The notes below the pieces were generated by a model that worked only from the letters and a program-made list of their open reading frames with translations, did not search any database and was not told where the DNA came from. A stretch of DNA of 64,000 nt from Thiotrichales bacterium. GTDB taxonomy: Bacteria > Pseudomonadota > Gammaproteobacteria > Thiomicrospirales > Thiomicrospiraceae. Shown here piece after piece: positions 7,603-16,200 of this stretch. Positions within the stretch are counted from its first letter, which is position 1. Each line of letters begins with the position of its first letter. The translations under genes and the position numbers were made by a program. The stretch lies in contig JAEMQD010000008.1 in assembly GCA_022759035.1 (NCBI GenBank), forward strand, positions 1 through 64,000, given 5' to 3'.

Positions 7603-9684
7603 ATGAAGTTTAATTTTCGTCGTATTAAGACCAGCGTTATTGCGGCAACGAGTTATGTTGTATTACTGGCGATTGGTGTTGCCATTGCTTGGCTGTACCA
7701 CGGGGTAATGGTAGATAGTCAAAAAAACTATGCGGAACTCGCGCGTATTCATGCGAAAAGTGATGCTTTGGAAGGGATGCTGAGTATTGCTCGCGAACGC
7801 AGTATTTTGTTAGCGCAAGCGATTTTTACCGCTGATCCGTTTGAGCGTGATGCGCTAAGAACACAATTTGATAAATTGATTCCGCGTTTTAATGAAATAC
7901 GAAGCAACTATGTTCAGCATATTCGCCAGAGTATTAATGAAGGTGCGCAGCAGGCAATTGCCCATCAAGAATTAGCGGTGATGGATGTTTATTTAGATGC
8001 GTTGAACCGCGCTAGAGCATTTCAAGATCAGTTGTCTACTGAAATTGAAACGGGTAACTTATTAGAAATTGGTGAGAAATGGGCAAAAATTGCCATACCA
8101 CAACAGAATGAAGCGATGCGTATTTTAAGCGAATTAAAAGACCTTAATACGCAGGATCGCAAGGCTGTGGAAGCGCTATTTGAGCGCCAATTACTGGTTG
8201 GTAATCAAATGTTACGAAGTAGCAGCTTAATTTATTTAATTGCTTGGCTAATTATTGGTGCGGTTAGTTTGCGTTTGTTAACAAATGCACGTAATGCTCA
8301 GGAGTTATTTGAGAATCAGCTAGAAAATGAAGTATTGCAACGCACTAAAGCTTATGAGGAGGTTAATCAAGTATTAGAGCGCACGGCTAATTATGATGCG
8401 GTAACTGGGCTATTAAATCGTCATTCCTTCCAGTTGTATTTGCAACGACTGGTTAGTCAGCAAGATCAAGCGTTTTCGTTGTTTTTTATCGATTTAGATA
8501 ATTTCAAATGGTTTAATGATACCTTGGGGCATGAAGCAGGCGATGCGTTATTGCGGCATCTCTCGGAAGCGTTTTTAGGGATGTTATCGCATATTCCTCA
8601 TACCTATTTGGCGCGTATTGGTGGCGATGAGTTTGTGGTTATTTGCCCGTGCCAAGATGCTGGTGCCGAGCGACTTATAGCACAGCAATTAATTGATATT
8701 GTTAATGAGCATAATAAAGTGGGGGCGTCGACGAAAGCCTTAGGATGTAGTATTGGCATTGCGCGCTTTCCAGATCATGGTACAACTAAGACGGAGTTGT
8801 TGCGTTTTGCCGATTTCGCTATGTATTGCGCTAAAGCGGCGGGGAAAAATCAAGTCTGCGTATTTAGCGATGTGATGAAACAGGATATGCAATCAAGGTT
8901 GATGTTAGAAGAAGCATTAAGTGCCGCCATTAAGAATAAAGCATTGACTGTGCATTACCAAGCACAGTTCGATATGAAAACATTAGAGGTGATTGGTGCT
9001 GAAGCATTAACACGTTGGCAGCATGAAGGACAGCTCATTTCGCCAGCGATTTTTGTTCCTCTGGCAGAGAAAATGGGTTTTATTTACGATTTGGGTTTGT
9101 TTGTTTTTGAAGCGAGTGTGCGCCAGTTAGCGATTTGGCGGGACCAAGGTCACAGCATTTCACGTATGGCAATTAATTTGTCGCAGTTGCAATTGCGCTG
9201 TCCAAGTCTTATTTCAGACTTTATGTCTATTATTCGTGCTTACGATGTTGATGCGAAACAATTGGATTTAGAAATTACTGAAAGCACGTTTATGGAAGAA
9301 TGCGGCACGTCATTGCATGTGTTGAATTTATTACAAGCATCGGGCATTGAAATTTCGATTGACGACTTTGGTACTGGTTATTCCTCTTTATCACAAATTA
9401 AGCGATTAAATGTTGATCGCATCAAAATTGACAAGAGTTTTGTTGACGATATTGCTACCGATGGTCAGTCGCAAACTTTAGTGAAAGCGATTATTACTAT
9501 GGCGCATAGTTTGGGGTTGCGTGTTTTGGCCGAAGGGATTGAAACAGAAGCACAATATCAATTATTAAAAGCGCTGGGTTGTGATGAAGGACAAGGTTAT
9601 TGGTTTGCACGGCCTGTGCCAGCCGAACAATTTTCATTTGCTACCAAAACGATTACACCTGAGCAAACAACAATCGCGTACTAA
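7603..9684 (+). CDS. Membrane GGDEF-EAL c-di-GMP protein
   Basis: I choose the ATG at 7603 (693 residues); a GTG eight codons upstream (7579) lacks a ribosome site. Membrane segments flank a periplasmic helical sensor region (about residues 10-30 and 205-222). A coiled coil leads to a GGDEF domain with intact RIGGDEF but no RxxD site, then an EAL domain with EALTRW, LEITES and loop-6 DDFGTGYSS, all residues expected for c-di-GMP hydrolysis. Both activities are possible. The last 366 coding bases, plus 42 further bases, are repeated exactly at 15793-16200, where they form a gene fragment. In the ancestral locus this gene would have converged on recG with a short 3' overlap. Confidence 0.93.
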   Translation: MKFNFRRIKTSVIAATSYVVLLAIGVAIAWLYHGVMVDSQKNYAELARIHAKSDALEGMLSIARERSILLAQAIFTADPFERDALRTQFDKLIPRFNEIRSNYVQHIRQSINEGAQQAIAHQELAVMDVYLDALNRARAFQDQLSTEIETGNLLEIGEKWAKIAIPQQNEAMRILSELKDLNTQDRKAVEALFERQLLVGNQMLRSSSLIYLIAWLIIGAVSLRLLTNARNAQELFENQLENEVLQRTKAYEEVNQVLERTANYDAVTGLLNRHSFQLYLQRLVSQQDQAFSLFFIDLDNFKWFNDTLGHEAGDALLRHLSEAFLGMLSHIPHTYLARIGGDEFVVICPCQDAGAERLIAQQLIDIVNEHNKVGASTKALGCSIGIARFPDHGTTKTELLRFADFAMYCAKAAGKNQVCVFSDVMKQDMQSRLMLEEALSAAIKNKALTVHYQAQFDMKTLEVIGAEALTRWQHEGQLISPAIFVPLAEKMGFIYDLGLFVFEASVRQLAIWRDQGHSISRMAINLSQLQLRCPSLISDFMSIIRAYDVDAKQLDLEITESTFMEECGTSLHVLNLLQASGIEISIDDFGTGYSSLSQIKRLNVDRIKIDKSFVDDIATDGQSQTLVKAIITMAHSLGLRVLAEGIETEAQYQLLKALGCDEGQGYWFARPVPAEQFSFATKTITPEQTTIAY

Positions 9685-9726
9685 ACCAACGCTGAATCAG
9701 CGGTTGTACGCAGTTTGGCTGTGTGG
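9319..9726. repeat. 408-bp direct repeat, copy 1 (EAL gene 3' end)
   Basis: By reading, these 408 bases recur without a difference at 15793-16200 in the same orientation, with a constant offset of 6474. The first mismatching bases are 9318 (T) against 15792 (A), and 9727 (A) against 16201 (T). Copy 1 is the native 3' end of the intact GGDEF-EAL gene. Its last 74 bases (9653-9726) read on the minus strand as an orphan copy of the recG C-terminus. Confidence 0.97.
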
Positions 9727-10234: not shown

Positions 10235-10633
10235 TCAAAACACCTTCTCAGCGGTAAGTTGTGCCATTTTTAATACTTCGTCCTTGCCACCAAACCAAGT
10301 ATTGGATCGCACGTAGAATGCCTTGCCTTCGCCCATGTAACCAATGCAGAAAGTGACAGGCTGTAAGGTCTGGTTGGCTTCATCCGCATCCATGTACCCT
10401 ATGTCCAGCGCGAAATTTTCCGGATGTTCGCACTTGCGCATCAGTAGATTGGTTTTGATAAAGGCCATGCCGTCGGTTTTGATGTTGGCAACAAATAGCA
10501 GGTAGTCTTTACGGTCTATAACGGTGATATCGACACTGTCACCTGCGTATTCACGAATTTTTTGTGCGCTAGCGCGTCCGGCAAAGTTGCCACCGAGTAC
10601 CAGGACATGGGGCTTAGCTGTGGTTTGCACCAT
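10235..10633 (-). pseudogene. Remnant of a sulfide:quinone-reductase-like FAD oxidoreductase
   Basis: The 132-residue frame starts with an FAD dinucleotide-binding motif (VLVLGGNFAGRASAQKI) and VIDRKDYLLFV, as in SQR-like NAD(P)/FAD oxidoreductases of about 380 residues. It then jumps to what looks like the family C-terminal region (DADEANQTLQPVTFCIGYMG, then RSNTWFGG and LTAEKVF). The middle of the protein, including the catalytic and second nucleotide-binding parts, is absent, and a further gap appears near residue 122. The frame stays open throughout. I read it as a decayed gene with in-frame deletions; the exact enzyme type is inferred. Confidence 0.6.
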
Positions 10634-12213: not shown

Positions 12214-13188
12214 TTAAGCGTGGTTAACAGTGGTGATCCGTGCTTGATAAAATGGTTCTACAGGTCCGATTATCACCGCGCCACCAACAGGACCGACAGC
12301 TGCCTGGAAGCGTGCGTCCAGATGGGAGTTTTCATGATCCCACACTGATTGCCATACGCCATGGAATAAATAGGCTCGCAAGTCACCGTCGGCGAATGCG
12401 TTGCGCAGTATCTCGGTGGATACGGCTTTGCGATAGTAGCTGTTATCTTTAGCGCCTGCTAACCCCATACCGGCTGGATCATTCATTGGTTGATAAGTTT
12501 GTTGTGCGACAGTTAGTAATGCAACGACCTGATCTTCCAATCCTTCATGACCCGCATCCGCAATCATGACGTGATTGGCTACAGAGACCAAGCTATTGTC
12601 ATTTACTTCTACGGGTTGTCTAAGAAAAGCGATGATGTCCTTGGGTTGGGTCATGATGCTGCTACGATTACCTGCAGCGATGGTTTGGAATACGCCGCGA
12701 TAGTGTGCAGTAGCCTGTGGGGCTTTGACCATGCCTTGGTCAGTCATTTTATAGGCATGTAGGTGGGGAATGATGGTGCGATCAAACCACGCTTCGGCTT
12801 CAGATTTAAGCAAATCCCGGTAGTTTTCAAAACGTAAGTAAAGTGCATAGAAATAGGGTTGGGTGTGGTTAGCGACACCATCCAGATAAGCTTCTGCCAA
12901 TACGCCCTTATAAGTGTCTGGATAATTTTTAACCATGGTGGAGTCGCCCGTCATTTGTTTACACGACAGGCTTAGAAAGCCAGGTTTTTGTTGCAATGCG
13001 TCACCTTGTGCCTGAATTGCCTTGAGTACGGCCTCGTTTTCTGGGGGGGCAACACGGAATTCATAGTACAGGGTCACGGGTCCCTGGGGCAGCTTTCCTG
13101 ATTTTGGTAGTGGTGTCGCCATGACTTGGGCGGCAAATCCAGTTGCAGTTAACGCGGTTGCTGTAGTGAGAAATTGACGACGATTCAT
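12214..13188 (-). CDS. Tat-exported protein with a SOR-like HxxxH...GPxEP motif
   Basis: Protein of 324 residues with a twin-arginine signal (MNRRQFLT, hydrophobic core, cleavage probably after VMA near residue 24). Two halves each look like a dimeric alpha-beta barrel: FRVAPPENEAVLKAI...KPGFLSL in the first, and a second ending in WDHENSH (H285, H289) and IIGPVEP (E311). Sulfur oxygenase/reductase binds its mononuclear iron through an HxxxH pair and a glutamate in a GPxEP context 24 residues later; here the spacing is 22. In SOR that motif is in the N-terminal half, and the catalytic persulfide cysteine has no clear match here. A periplasmic sulfur-handling iron enzyme is therefore a hypothesis; the secure call is a Tat-exported alpha-beta barrel protein. 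Confidence 0.6.
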   Translation of the reverse strand: MNRRQFLTTATALTATGFAAQVMATPLPKSGKLPQGPVTLYYEFRVAPPENEAVLKAIQAQGDALQQKPGFLSLSCKQMTGDSTMVKNYPDTYKGVLAEAYLDGVANHTQPYFYALYLRFENYRDLLKSEAEAWFDRTIIPHLHAYKMTDQGMVKAPQATAHYRGVFQTIAAGNRSSIMTQPKDIIAFLRQPVEVNDNSLVSVANHVMIADAGHEGLEDQVVALLTVAQQTYQPMNDPAGMGLAGAKDNSYYRKAVSTEILRNAFADGDLRAYLFHGVWQSVWDHENSHLDARFQAAVGPVGGAVIIGPVEPFYQARITTVNHA

Positions 13189-13315
13189 GATGCAAGCCCC
13201 TTTGAATATCGGTTGATATTGCGTTTGTTTAAAACTATCAAGTCGCTGATGACATCATTCAGTTAACTGGATAGGTTTACCTATAATATGCCCGATTTAA
13301 TATATTTGCAATTTC

Positions 13316-13340
13316 ATATATAAAGAAAATTATATATAAT
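13316..13340 (+). promoter_or_regulatory. Candidate ArsR operator overlapping a -10 element
   Basis: A perfect eight-base inverted repeat, ATATATAA (13316-13323) and TTATATAT (13330-13337), has a six-base spacer. A TATAAT hexamer at 13335-13340 overlaps its right arm and lies only six bases before the arsR ATG at 13347, with no Shine-Dalgarno sequence visible. ArsR-family repressors bind AT-rich dyads over their own promoters, so autoregulation is likely. The transcript may be leaderless, or a -10 further upstream is used. Confidence 0.5.
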
Positions 13341-13346
13341 GATTTC

Positions 13347-13697
13347 ATGAATCCATTATTTGATGTTTTATCTGACGCTACGCGGCGTCATTTGTTATTG
13401 CTACTCGCAGTCGAGCGGGAGTTGTGTGTGTGTGAATTAGTTGCAGCGCTGGAAGAGGTGCAGCCCAAAATTTCGCGCCATCTTGCGTTGTTACGTGAAT
13501 CTGGCTGGGTGAAGTCGCGGCGCGATGGAACATGGGTATATTATAGTTTATGTGATTTACCGATATGGGCGCAGTCAGTTATCACTGCGTTGCAGCAAGG
13601 AGCAGTACCTGCTGAAGAATTGTTAGCGTCGCGGTTAAGACTTATCCAGTTTACTGGGCGGCCTGTGCGTGTGGCGGTGGAGTCTGTATCAGTGTAA
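13347..13697 (+). CDS. arsR: ArsR-family metalloregulator, arsenic type
   Basis: Protein of 116 residues, a winged-helix ArsR/SmtB repressor. The ELCVCEL motif near residue 26 is the alpha-3 CxC As(III)/Sb(III) site of classical ArsR, followed by the DNA-reading helix QPKISRHLALLRESGWV. It should bind its operator and be released by arsenite or a similar soft ligand. No ars transport or reductase genes are adjacent; it is divergent from the Tat protein gene and upstream of a CMD-like gene. It may have been recruited to that regulon, so the true inducer is uncertain. Confidence 0.9.
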   Translation: MNPLFDVLSDATRRHLLLLLAVERELCVCELVAALEEVQPKISRHLALLRESGWVKSRRDGTWVYYSLCDLPIWAQSVITALQQGAVPAEELLASRLRLIQFTGRPVRVAVESVSV

Positions 13698-13740: not shown

Positions 13741-14100
13741 ATGTCACAAAATCCAGAAGTTGAAGTTATGCTGAATAAAATGCGCGCAGGCATGGGGGAA
13801 ATCCCGACTGCAATTGAAAAAGTAGCAGAAGTGGATGAATCGCTGTTATTTGAGCATATGCGTTCCAGTGGCTATGCCATGCCGCCCGATGGGGCTTTGG
13901 ATACGCAAACACGTACTTTAGTCTATTTGGCCGCAGCGTTGGCCGCGGGCAGTCAGCCATGCATACAAGCCATGGCGAATAAGGCAGTCATGCAAAAAAT
14001 CCCCCATGACAAGCTAATGGAAACGGTAAAAATTGTTCGCTATGCCATGGCTACTCGCATTATTGGTGAAGCAGAACCTATTTTTAATGCGATGCGTTAA
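13741..14100 (+). CDS. Carboxymuconolactone-decarboxylase-like protein
   Basis: Protein of 119 residues, start at the ATG seven bases after AGGAGAA. It shows the AhpD/CMD-like helical layout: D-T-Q-T-R-T-L-V-Y-L-A-A-A-L-A-A-G followed by SQPCIQAMANKA. The usual CxxC of AhpD-type peroxidase partners is reduced to one cysteine, so disulfide chemistry like that of AhpD is unlikely. It follows arsR by 43 bases and is probably co-transcribed with it. The family is often found next to thiol or detoxification genes, but a substrate cannot be given. Confidence 0.72.
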   Translation: MSQNPEVEVMLNKMRAGMGEIPTAIEKVAEVDESLLFEHMRSSGYAMPPDGALDTQTRTLVYLAAALAAGSQPCIQAMANKAVMQKIPHDKLMETVKIVRYAMATRIIGEAEPIFNAMR

Positions 14101-14315: not shown

Positions 14316-14620
14316 TGCAAAGCCTATAGCATCGAACATCGACTAACCAAACCACGTCATTCGCAAACCAAAGGTATGGTAGAACACGTTAATGGTAGGA
14401 TATCAGCACTCTTGGCAACAACGCGATTTATCAGCCAAGAGCAGTTAGAAGACAAACTACACAAGTATCTTAACCTGCACAATCATCACGTTGTACAAAA
14501 AAATATTGGGCATATTACCCCAATAAACTCAAGGACTGGCAGAAAACTAATCCTGAGTTATTTGTTAAAAAGGTTTACAATCAATCGAAACCCGACACTG
14601 GAGGAGGTGCAAAACAATGA
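14316..14620 (+). pseudogene. IS481-type transposase C-terminal remnant
   Basis: From 14316 the frame reads Y-S-I-E-H-R-L-T-K-P-R-H-S-Q-T-K-G-M-V-E-H-V-N-G-R-I, the typical end of an rve-fold IS481/IS3-like integrase core including the last catalytic glutamate region. It continues to HITPI near 14524, then shifts frame to KLKDWQKTNPELFVKKVYNQ and stops at 14618-14620. The N-terminal two thirds are missing. The stop overlaps the chrA start codon (ATGA), and the purine-rich GGAGGAGG before chrA lies inside this tail. Confidence 0.8.
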
Positions 14621-15792
14621 ATGAACCGTCCCCTGTTGCCCTGCGCACGATCTTTATTGCCTTTCTGGAAATCGGCTTCACCGCTTATGGCATGGCTATC
14701 CTGCAGAAGCTGCGCGGACTAGTGGTCCAGCGCGGCTGGCTCACGGAGGAAGAAACCAGCGAGGGACTGGCGATGGTGCAGCTCTACCCAGGCCCGATTA
14801 TGGTGGACTTTACCGCCTATGTGGGCTACCGCCTGCGCGGTGTACCGGGCGCACTCATGGCGACACTGGGCTTTGTGCTGCCAGCCTTTGTTTTGGTCAC
14901 GGCACTTTCCGCAGCCTATTTCGCCGGGGGTGAGCTGCCCTGGGTACACAAGCTATTTCTCGGCCTCGAGGCACTGGTGATCGGCGTGCTTGCCAATGTC
15001 ACGATGAGTCTCGGGCAGCAGGCGATCAAAGGGCGCATCGAGTTATTCATTGCTGTGGCGGCTTTCATCGCGCTGTTGTTCAAGGTCAGCGCGATTCTTA
15101 TCCCGCTGGTGGCACTGGGTGTGGGTGCCCTGGCTATTTCCAGACCAGGTGTTGCTTCCCTCGCCCAGGAAGCGGCCCCGTCACGGCAGCGGCTGATTAC
15201 CGTGATGACGCTGGTGATGGTTATTGTCGCCGGCGCAATCACAGCGGGTGTGTCTGGCACTTCGCTGGGCCAACTCATCGCCTCGCTGTTCAAGATCGGC
15301 TCCGTCGCTTTCGGCAACGGCATGGCCATCATCGGTGTGATGCAGGCCGAGGTGGTGCAGGCGCACAGCTGGGTCAGCCAGCGAGAATTTCTCGACGGTC
15401 TGGCGCTGGGGCAGATCACCCCTGGCCCCGTTCTGCTCACCGCTGCGTTTATCGGCTATAAGCTCGCTGGCGTGGCGGGTGCAGCGCTGGCCACCTTTGC
15501 CATCTTTGCGCCATCCATCGCCATGACGCTGGTATTCACCGAAATCTTTGGCCGCATCAAGCACCTGCAGTGGGTGCGCGGGGCGCTGGCTGGCGTGCTC
15601 GCCGCCTTCGTCGGTCTGCTGGCGGCAACGCTGTGGCAATTGGGGCATGTTGCGCTGGATAGCCCTTTATTATTGGCTTTTGCTGCTGCGGCATTTGTCG
15701 CCTCGCGCGGCTTCAAACTCGATATGGGCTGGGTATTTGGCGGCGGGCTGGCGTTGTGGGCGTTGTTAGTTGTGGCTGGGCTTACTGGATGA
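14617..15792 (+). CDS. chrA: Chromate transporter ChrA (long, two-domain)
   Basis: Protein of 391 residues with two tandem CHR domains, each with its family signature: G-L-A-M-V-Q-L-Y-P-G-P in the first and LGQITPGPVLLTAAFIGYK in the second. About ten membrane segments are visible. The family exports chromate from the cytosol. The start is the ATG with GGAGGAGG nine bases upstream. The gene is visibly richer in GC than its neighbours, with GC-ending codons, which marks recent transfer. Its stop codon TGA is immediately followed by copy 2 of the 408-bp repeat. No chrB or other chromate genes accompany it. Confidence 0.93.
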   Translation: MNEPSPVALRTIFIAFLEIGFTAYGMAILQKLRGLVVQRGWLTEEETSEGLAMVQLYPGPIMVDFTAYVGYRLRGVPGALMATLGFVLPAFVLVTALSAAYFAGGELPWVHKLFLGLEALVIGVLANVTMSLGQQAIKGRIELFIAVAAFIALLFKVSAILIPLVALGVGALAISRPGVASLAQEAAPSRQRLITVMTLVMVIVAGAITAGVSGTSLGQLIASLFKIGSVAFGNGMAIIGVMQAEVVQAHSWVSQREFLDGLALGQITPGPVLLTAAFIGYKLAGVAGAALATFAIFAPSIAMTLVFTEIFGRIKHLQWVRGALAGVLAAFVGLLAATLWQLGHVALDSPLLLAFAAAAFVASRGFKLDMGWVFGGGLALWALLVVAGLTG

Positions 15793-16158
15793 GTGTTGAA
15801 TTTATTACAAGCATCGGGCATTGAAATTTCGATTGACGACTTTGGTACTGGTTATTCCTCTTTATCACAAATTAAGCGATTAAATGTTGATCGCATCAAA
15901 ATTGACAAGAGTTTTGTTGACGATATTGCTACCGATGGTCAGTCGCAAACTTTAGTGAAAGCGATTATTACTATGGCGCATAGTTTGGGGTTGCGTGTTT
16001 TGGCCGAAGGGATTGAAACAGAAGCACAATATCAATTATTAAAAGCGCTGGGTTGTGATGAAGGACAAGGTTATTGGTTTGCACGGCCTGTGCCAGCCGA
16101 ACAATTTTCATTTGCTACCAAAACGATTACACCTGAGCAAACAACAATCGCGTACTAA
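15793..16158 (+). pseudogene. Duplicated C-terminal EAL-domain fragment
   Basis: These bases repeat the last 366 coding bases of the GGDEF-EAL gene (9319-9684), giving 121 residues that start at GTG inside the EAL domain. DDFGTGYSS and later EAL residues are present, but the EAL motif itself and half the barrel are missing, so no enzyme is expected. The fragment abuts the chrA stop codon. It is a by-product of the insertion rather than a functional gene. Confidence 0.93.
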
Positions 16159-16200
16159 ACCAACGCTGAATCAGCGGTTGTACGCAGTTTGGCTGTGTGG
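15793..16200. repeat. 408-bp direct repeat, copy 2
   Basis: Second copy of the repeat at 9319-9726, same orientation, no differences found by reading. Its right part (16127-16200) also encodes the genuine C-terminus of RecG on the minus strand, so this copy is the one in contact with native sequence on its right. Confidence 0.97.

Follow-up and report, generated by a model that had tools for sequence, protein, structure and literature searches.

A CT0912-like protein in an arsenic-type gene island carries a probable metal site resembling that of sulfur oxygenase/reductase

The window analyzed here is a 64,000-nucleotide stretch of contig JAEMQD010000008.1 from a Thiotrichales bacterium (GCA_022759035.1). 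At positions 12214–13188 it holds an intact open reading frame (ORF) on the minus strand, a strand that the earlier note on this DNA had not given, encoding a protein of 324 amino acids (Table 1). Both domains of the CT0912-like family (Pfam ABM-like and CT0912-like_C) were detected in order and well over the curated cut-off of 27 bits each (124.7 bits for PF21931 and 187.9 bits for PF22087), and by its sequence the protein is a member of this orphan family with a solved structure. The closest solved structure was PDB 3GN6, CT0912 of Chlorobium tepidum (57% identity, 159/281 columns), a structural-genomics structure of 2009 that is described only as an ORFan with a ferredoxin-like repeat. All three proposed metal ligands (H285, H289, and E311, equivalent to H283, H287, and E309 of 3GN6) are conserved between the two proteins. 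Within the open-licence papers to which the literature search was limited, none was found that names CT0912 or 3GN6. The AlphaFold model of the window protein (pLDDT 91.3) displayed two alpha+beta barrels. The N-terminal ABM-like domain was shown by the alignment of 42 relatives to contain an invariant STMVKNYPxxYKG segment and no metal motif. At its N-terminus the protein bears an RR signal, MNRRQFLTTATALTATGFA, that is Tat-like by eye, with the TAT models scoring just under their cut-offs.

Table 1. Features of the CT0912-like gene and its island in the window
Feature	Position	Strand	Basis
CT0912-like protein (RR signal + ABM-like barrel + SOR-like metal barrel)	12214..13188	-	ORF; PF21931 E 2e-36, PF22087 E 1e-55; PDB 3GN6 E 6e-97
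Twin-arginine signal region, residues 1-25, end approximate, MNRRQFLTTATALTATGFAAQVMA	13114..13188	-	TAT_signal E 0.017; TIGR01409 16.0 bits vs cut-off 16.7
N-terminal ABM-like domain, residues 38-125	12814..13077	-	Pfam; alignment
C-terminal domain with SOR-like site, residues 170-316	12241..12681	-	PF22087; hhalign to SOR N-half E 1.9e-7
H285, aligned with SOR H86	12334..12336	-	invariant 42/42 (partly built in); profile alignment
H289, aligned with SOR H90	12322..12324	-	invariant 42/42 (partly built in); profile alignment
E311 of GPVEP, aligned with SOR E114	12256..12258	-	invariant 42/42 (partly built in); profile alignment
Divergent intergenic region, 158 bp, between CT0912-like gene and arsR	13189..13346		sequence; repeats
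ArsR with ELCVCEL, the CxC metalloid site of As(III)-type ArsR	13347..13697	+	HTH_5 E 2e-11; PRK10141 94 bits vs cut-off 97
CMD (carboxymuconolactone decarboxylase/AhpD-like) protein, one conserved Cys	13741..14100	+	PF02627
Chromate-type transporter, end of island; in 5/49 related loci	14617..15792	+	PF02417

The twin-arginine signal, the two-barrel architecture, the numbering of the three ligands, and the divergent ArsR had all been put forward in the earlier note, and each of these agreed with the features listed in Table 1, the signal as judged by eye; the remnant of an SQR-like oxidoreductase claimed in the same island was likewise located, at 10235–10633 (132 aa), by a weak Pyr_redox_2 match (E 0.0095). 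The export claim could be extended to the family in part: the RR motif was found in 30 of the 42 aligned relatives, so that Tat export appears common, but it is not universal, since the mycobacterial and CT0912-clade members in this alignment have no signal peptide. The further suggestion that such a protein had not been described does not wholly stand, as the family had already been named after CT0912 and its structure solved as 3GN6.

The CxC motif of ArsR binds As(III), and the arsR gene of the island is transcribed away from the CT0912-like gene. In the intergenic region between them, a weak AT-rich inverted repeat, ATATATAA-N6-TTATATAT, was found at 13316–13337; it is a possible candidate for the ArsR operator and possibly a chance occurrence, and a promoter scan of the 158 bp gave nothing better than shuffled sequences. 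A short ORF (14376–14624) that by eye resembles a transposase or integrase remnant lies between the genes for the CMD protein and the chromate transporter. The 6,066-bp island with the CT0912-like gene, arsR, the CMD gene, and the chromate transporter is bounded on both sides by a perfect direct repeat of 408 bp (9319–9726 and 15793–16200), which is composed of the 3' end of a GGDEF-EAL gene together with the terminal part of recG. This repeat may be the footprint of a recent integration or duplication, with an assembly artefact as the alternative. When the end of the GGDEF-EAL gene was used to look for the empty site in the genomes of kin, only short matches came up; a plasmid search returned no match.

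The gene proved to be sporadic, the window genome being its sole carrier among 57 kin genomes and in a 398-genome sample of the phylum; with homologues absent from the other 56 relatives and from the rest of the sample, the kin genomes offered no usable vertical context. Scanning of approximately 85,000 species genomes yielded 49 homologue loci with a scattered distribution across proteobacteria, Campylobacterota, cyanobacteria, Mycobacterium, Bacteroidota, and Sulfobacillus, many of the hosts being Acidithiobacillus, Thiomonas, Halothiobacillus, Thiocapsa, Sulfuricurvum, or Sulfobacillus. Horizontal transfer of the gene is suggested by the tree of these proteins, in which the sequences from Mycobacterium group next to Methylocella. 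Apparently broken copies were seen in Candidatus Mycobacterium methanotrophicum (L047, 8016–9708), where the homologue is split by approximately 950 bp, and at locus L048 (7977–8980), where it is divided over two ORFs.

Arsenic-related genes were the conserved neighbors of the family. With arsR and the CMD gene left aside, ars-type genes were present in 29 of the 49 loci and in none of 20 random 17-kb windows taken from ten of the host genomes (Fisher p 1.4e-6, for loci that are not independent); the remaining 20 loci, several of them on short contigs, had no such gene. The most frequent partners were a permease of the ArsP_1 family (19/49 loci, 17 within 3 kb), a broad family that SaoE and Cu/Zn exporters match too, and an MTH895/ArsE-type thioredoxin (18/49), followed by homologues of the CMD protein (13/49, 11 within 3 kb), an ArsI/CadI-like VOC protein (9/49), ArsR (9/49), ArsB (5/49), ACR3 (4/49), ArsA (4/49), and ArsH (3/49). 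Loci L003, L004, and L014 contain arsR-VOC-CT0912-CMD operons, in the last of which the arsR/VOC and VOC/CT0912 reading frames overlap, and L031 shows the order arsB-permease-arsE-arsH-CMD-CT0912-VOC. A CVC motif was present in the linked ArsRs of L003, L004, L005, L014, L015, L041, and L051. The arsenic context of the CT0912 family is thus well supported. Of the genes for which the earlier note had proposed a survey, arsR and the CMD gene recurred; the oxidoreductase did not, an NDH2/SQR-like gene being found in 4/49 loci against 2/20 controls and hence not enriched as a conserved partner. The conserved neighbors were arsenic genes rather than sulfur genes. In the Sulfobacillus-type loci L041, L050, and L051, the family is paired with an FmdE-domain protein and two tandem ArsA ATPases, beside a small neighbor protein that is DsrE-like by eye.

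Oxygenases are common among ABM-fold proteins, and the neighbors just listed raise the possibility that the CT0912-like protein is an oxygenase that, together with the ArsI/CadI-like VOC protein, the CMD protein, and the ArsP-type permease, detoxifies methylated or other carbon-bound arsenicals. Trivalent organoarsenicals are the substrates of ArsP, ArsI, and ArsH (PMC6205960), and the frequencies of the ArsP-family permease, VOC, CMD, and ArsH genes given above, as well as the oxygenase-rich fold, are in line with such a role. The VOC neighbor, however, reached only 50 bits against the ArsI model cut-off of 116, and its main group has no CC, the vicinal cysteines of ArsI being missing; in addition, neither the VOC nor the CMD protein carries a signal, so they would act in a compartment other than that of the exported enzyme. 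We therefore regard this role as improbable. The VOC partners in L003, L004, L014, L015, L036, and L038 form a tight group with the pattern EFHLS...YHLG...TTWRGTPLHELWLRDPTGY.IEIYAR, which is possibly a separate arsenic-linked VOC family.

The metal motif was assessed by comparison with sulfur oxygenase/reductase (SOR), in which iron is bound by H86, H90, and E114 and the replacement of these residues by alanine abolishes activity (PMC7398979). The invariant residues in the alignment of 42 relatives include H206, E259, and H276 (equivalent to H204, E257, and H274 of 3GN6) as well as D284, H285, E286, H289, D291, and E311, an invariance that is partly built in, as the homologues were collected with two patterns, one of them WDHENSH. 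The ligand spacing is H-x3-H-x21-E in the window protein versus H86-x3-H90-x23-E114 in SOR. The likeness is more than a chance one: when the window and all retrieved loci, with 3,990 ORFs of at least 100 aa (853,441 aa) between them, were scanned for H-x3-H-x(18-26)-GPxEP, the 59 occurrences lay in CT0912 homologues and SORs only. SOR profiles were then built from ten SOR proteins of same-class genomes and compared half by half: the CT0912 C-domain matched the SOR N-half with a score of 48.3 (hhalign, E 1.9e-7, probability 93.7%) over 40 columns, W-x5-HExxH...GPxEPxY, with the ligands aligned one to one. Reversed SOR scored 10.0, two ordinary ABM profiles 16.3 and 24.8, and the highest of 100 column-shuffled SOR profiles reached 26.2; no other pairing of CT0912 and SOR domains exceeded 23.8. 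Pairing like with like (N-domain with N-half, C-domain with C-half) gave 15.9 and 23.8, so that a matching domain order was unsupported. The N-domain against the SOR C-half gave a non-significant 17.4, and so the different position is established for the metal domain alone, a swap of the whole protein being unproven.

The fold comparison agreed with the profiles. In a Foldseek search of the AlphaFold model against the PDB, the next ten matches after 3GN6 were all SORs (E 6e-11 to 6e-10; TM-score 0.53–0.57 by query, rmsd 7–9 Å), which held ranks 4–13, ahead of every other ABM protein. The sole non-self match of the family hmmsearch against all PDB sequences was the SOR of H. neapolitanus (E 1), on the motif, and weak matches to the Pfam SOR model (PF07682) were obtained for 12 of the 42 relatives, with a best E of 0.016. 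Searched by itself, the C-domain retrieved generic ABM folds and SOR about equally well, and the specific link to SOR therefore rests on the 40-column match and the whole-chain fold ranking. A search of a viral fold library returned one two-domain ABM match and no lead. The structure prediction and the profile comparison of both halves thus bore out what the earlier note had read from the letters, namely a SOR-like motif, placed in the second barrel and not the first. Since these ligands align column for column with those of SOR in the same fold, we infer that H285, H289, and E311 converge in space. The SOR-like metal site is well supported, and the site of the C-domain is very probably homologous to the iron site of SOR, with the metal barrel in the other position.

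Whether the motif might instead be kept for a structural or non-redox metal such as Zn, the protein serving the arsenic island for binding or as a scaffold and being no oxygenase, was weighed on the same alignment. The further invariant H206, E259, and H276 could make another kind of site. The ligand set and its spacing, the HE pair included, are nevertheless those of a redox iron enzyme, and the invariant polar residues cluster around the ligands; we consider a structural or non-redox metal very unlikely.

The protein is SOR-like at its metal site and is not classed as an SOR, because it has no conserved Cys, does not reach the Pfam SOR model, and belongs to a family with SOR in only 3 of 34 hosts. 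SOR forms a hollow sphere of 24 subunits and is active on S0 with O2. In SOR, C31 is essential, the C31A mutant being inactive, and C101/C104 support activity (PMC7398979). In agreement with the earlier note, to which the persulfide Cys of SOR was not evident, no Cys column is kept across the 42 relatives. The window protein gave no Pfam SOR match up to E 10, and none was found in the window genome. A role as an accessory to SOR was accordingly rejected, SOR occurring in those 3/34 hosts only and being absent from the window genome. Among the SORs collected, the homologue at L057 (446 bits to PF07682) has an apparent twin-arginine signal (MTHKSSDLERRKFLKMTAMAAGG...) and is possibly an exported true SOR, and those at L058, L059, L060, and L061 form a divergent SOR-like group (204–218 bits; AHExFHE...CAKCG...GPEEP) that conserves the SOR cysteines and whose HENFH is nearest in letters to the CT0912 WDHENSH.

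Given this site, the protein could be a periplasmic sulfur oxygenase with sulfane sulfur or polysulfide as its substrate, in the manner of SOR, and with arsenic genes nearby because sulfur oxidizers inhabit arsenic-rich places. SoxB over its cut-off was enriched in the hosts (23/44, window genome included, vs 42/299 in the phylum sample, p 7e-8, the host set spanning more phyla than the sample). Many hosts belong to the six genera named above, from Acidithiobacillus to Sulfobacillus, and a persulfide-dioxygenase-like gene lies close by in L026 (by eye, unscored). Against a sulfur substrate stand the missing persulfide Cys, whose replacement in C31A abolishes SOR activity (PMC7398979), and the arsenic context kept by hosts without SoxB over the cut-off, namely Acidocella (L003), cyanobacteria (L008, L012, and L013), Mycobacterium (L005), and Methylocella (L006). 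Because these hosts keep it, arsenic is the better common factor than sulfur, and we consider a periplasmic sulfur oxygenase unlikely.

In the reading that we prefer, with its chances of being right or wrong about evenly balanced, the CT0912-like protein is a non-haem iron enzyme of SOR-like type in which the domains are swapped; most members would be exported by Tat, and the substrate would be a reduced compound of arsenic or of arsenic and sulfur. Iron as the metal, the oxygenase chemistry, and the substrate are inferred. The protein would be a two-barrel mononuclear enzyme, a distant SOR homologue with the iron barrel second, exported by Tat in the window genome and in most relatives, periplasmic where the signal is present, and part of arsenic-resistance islands under the control of an As(III)-type ArsR. 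H285, H289, and E311 would hold Fe(II) and leave open sites, and the barrel would bind reduced arsenic, with or without sulfur, in the form of thioarsenite/thioarsenate, arsenite, or a trivalent organoarsenical; this compound would be oxidized with O2. The ArsP-type permease, ArsE-like thioredoxin, ArsI/CadI-like VOC, CMD, and ArsB/ACR3 proteins, cytoplasmic or in the membrane, may handle the same compound or its products.

Thioarsenates are attractive as the substrate for three reasons: the site has a common origin with that of a sulfur oxygenase, the hosts inhabit places where arsenic and sulfide occur together, and the literature found establishes no enzyme dedicated to thioarsenate (PMC6205960, PMC6620896). 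Organoarsenicals and arsenite itself compete with them as candidate substrates. Mechanisms of thioarsenate resistance are expected to exist and are unverified (PMC6205960), and for thioarsenate oxidation by sulfur oxidizers the Sox enzymes have been proposed, with the proof unsettled (PMC6620896); the open-licence literature yielded nothing on SOR together with thioarsenate. A Tat-exported, domain-swapped SOR relative, whose expression is induced via ArsR and which has passed horizontally among sulfur oxidizers and other bacteria, might be the enzyme still lacking for oxidizing or detoxifying thioarsenic or other reduced arsenic species outside the cytoplasm, a proposal that we hold to be rather doubtful as it stands.

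The family and its fold were known already, whereas no open-licence paper was found that reports the profile match to SOR, the shifted place of the metal domain, or the arsenic context, and we take these three points to be new. The orphan fold 3GN6 thereby gains a biological setting and a hypothesis for its active site. SOR has until now been regarded as a stand-alone sulfur enzyme; if our reading is true, a relative with a moved iron barrel, without the persulfide Cys, and in an arsenic setting shows that the SOR site has been re-used. The CT0912-like protein becomes a testable candidate iron enzyme for arsenic or arsenic-sulfur compounds, and the question of thioarsenate resistance becomes testable through one gene of the family.

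Among known systems, VOC enzymes of the ArsI/CadI type and the organoarsenical system of ArsP and ArsH are recurrent gene neighbors of the CT0912 family, with folds unlike that of the CT0912-like protein. CT0912 itself (3GN6) is of the same family as the window protein, with all ligands kept at 57% identity over 281 columns, and differs in that the window protein has an RR signal, whereas the nearest tree relatives of CT0912 (L026, L031, and L016) have none. Proteins of the ABM superfamily (for example 5F9P, 3MCS, and PenE 9KDP) share the fold of each domain and the two-domain build, but the 27 ABM proteins profiled against the C-domain scored under SOR, and in the ORFs scanned the motif was seen solely in CT0912 homologues and SORs. 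SOR (PF07682; 2CB2, 6M35, and 6QPA) has in common with the CT0912 family two ferredoxin-like barrels and HExxH...GPxEPxY with near-equal spacing; in contrast to SOR, whose metal barrel is the first, the CT0912 family has it second, possesses neither the persulfide Cys nor the C101/C104 pair, is predicted to be mostly exported, falls under the Pfam SOR cut-off, and resides in an arsenic neighborhood.
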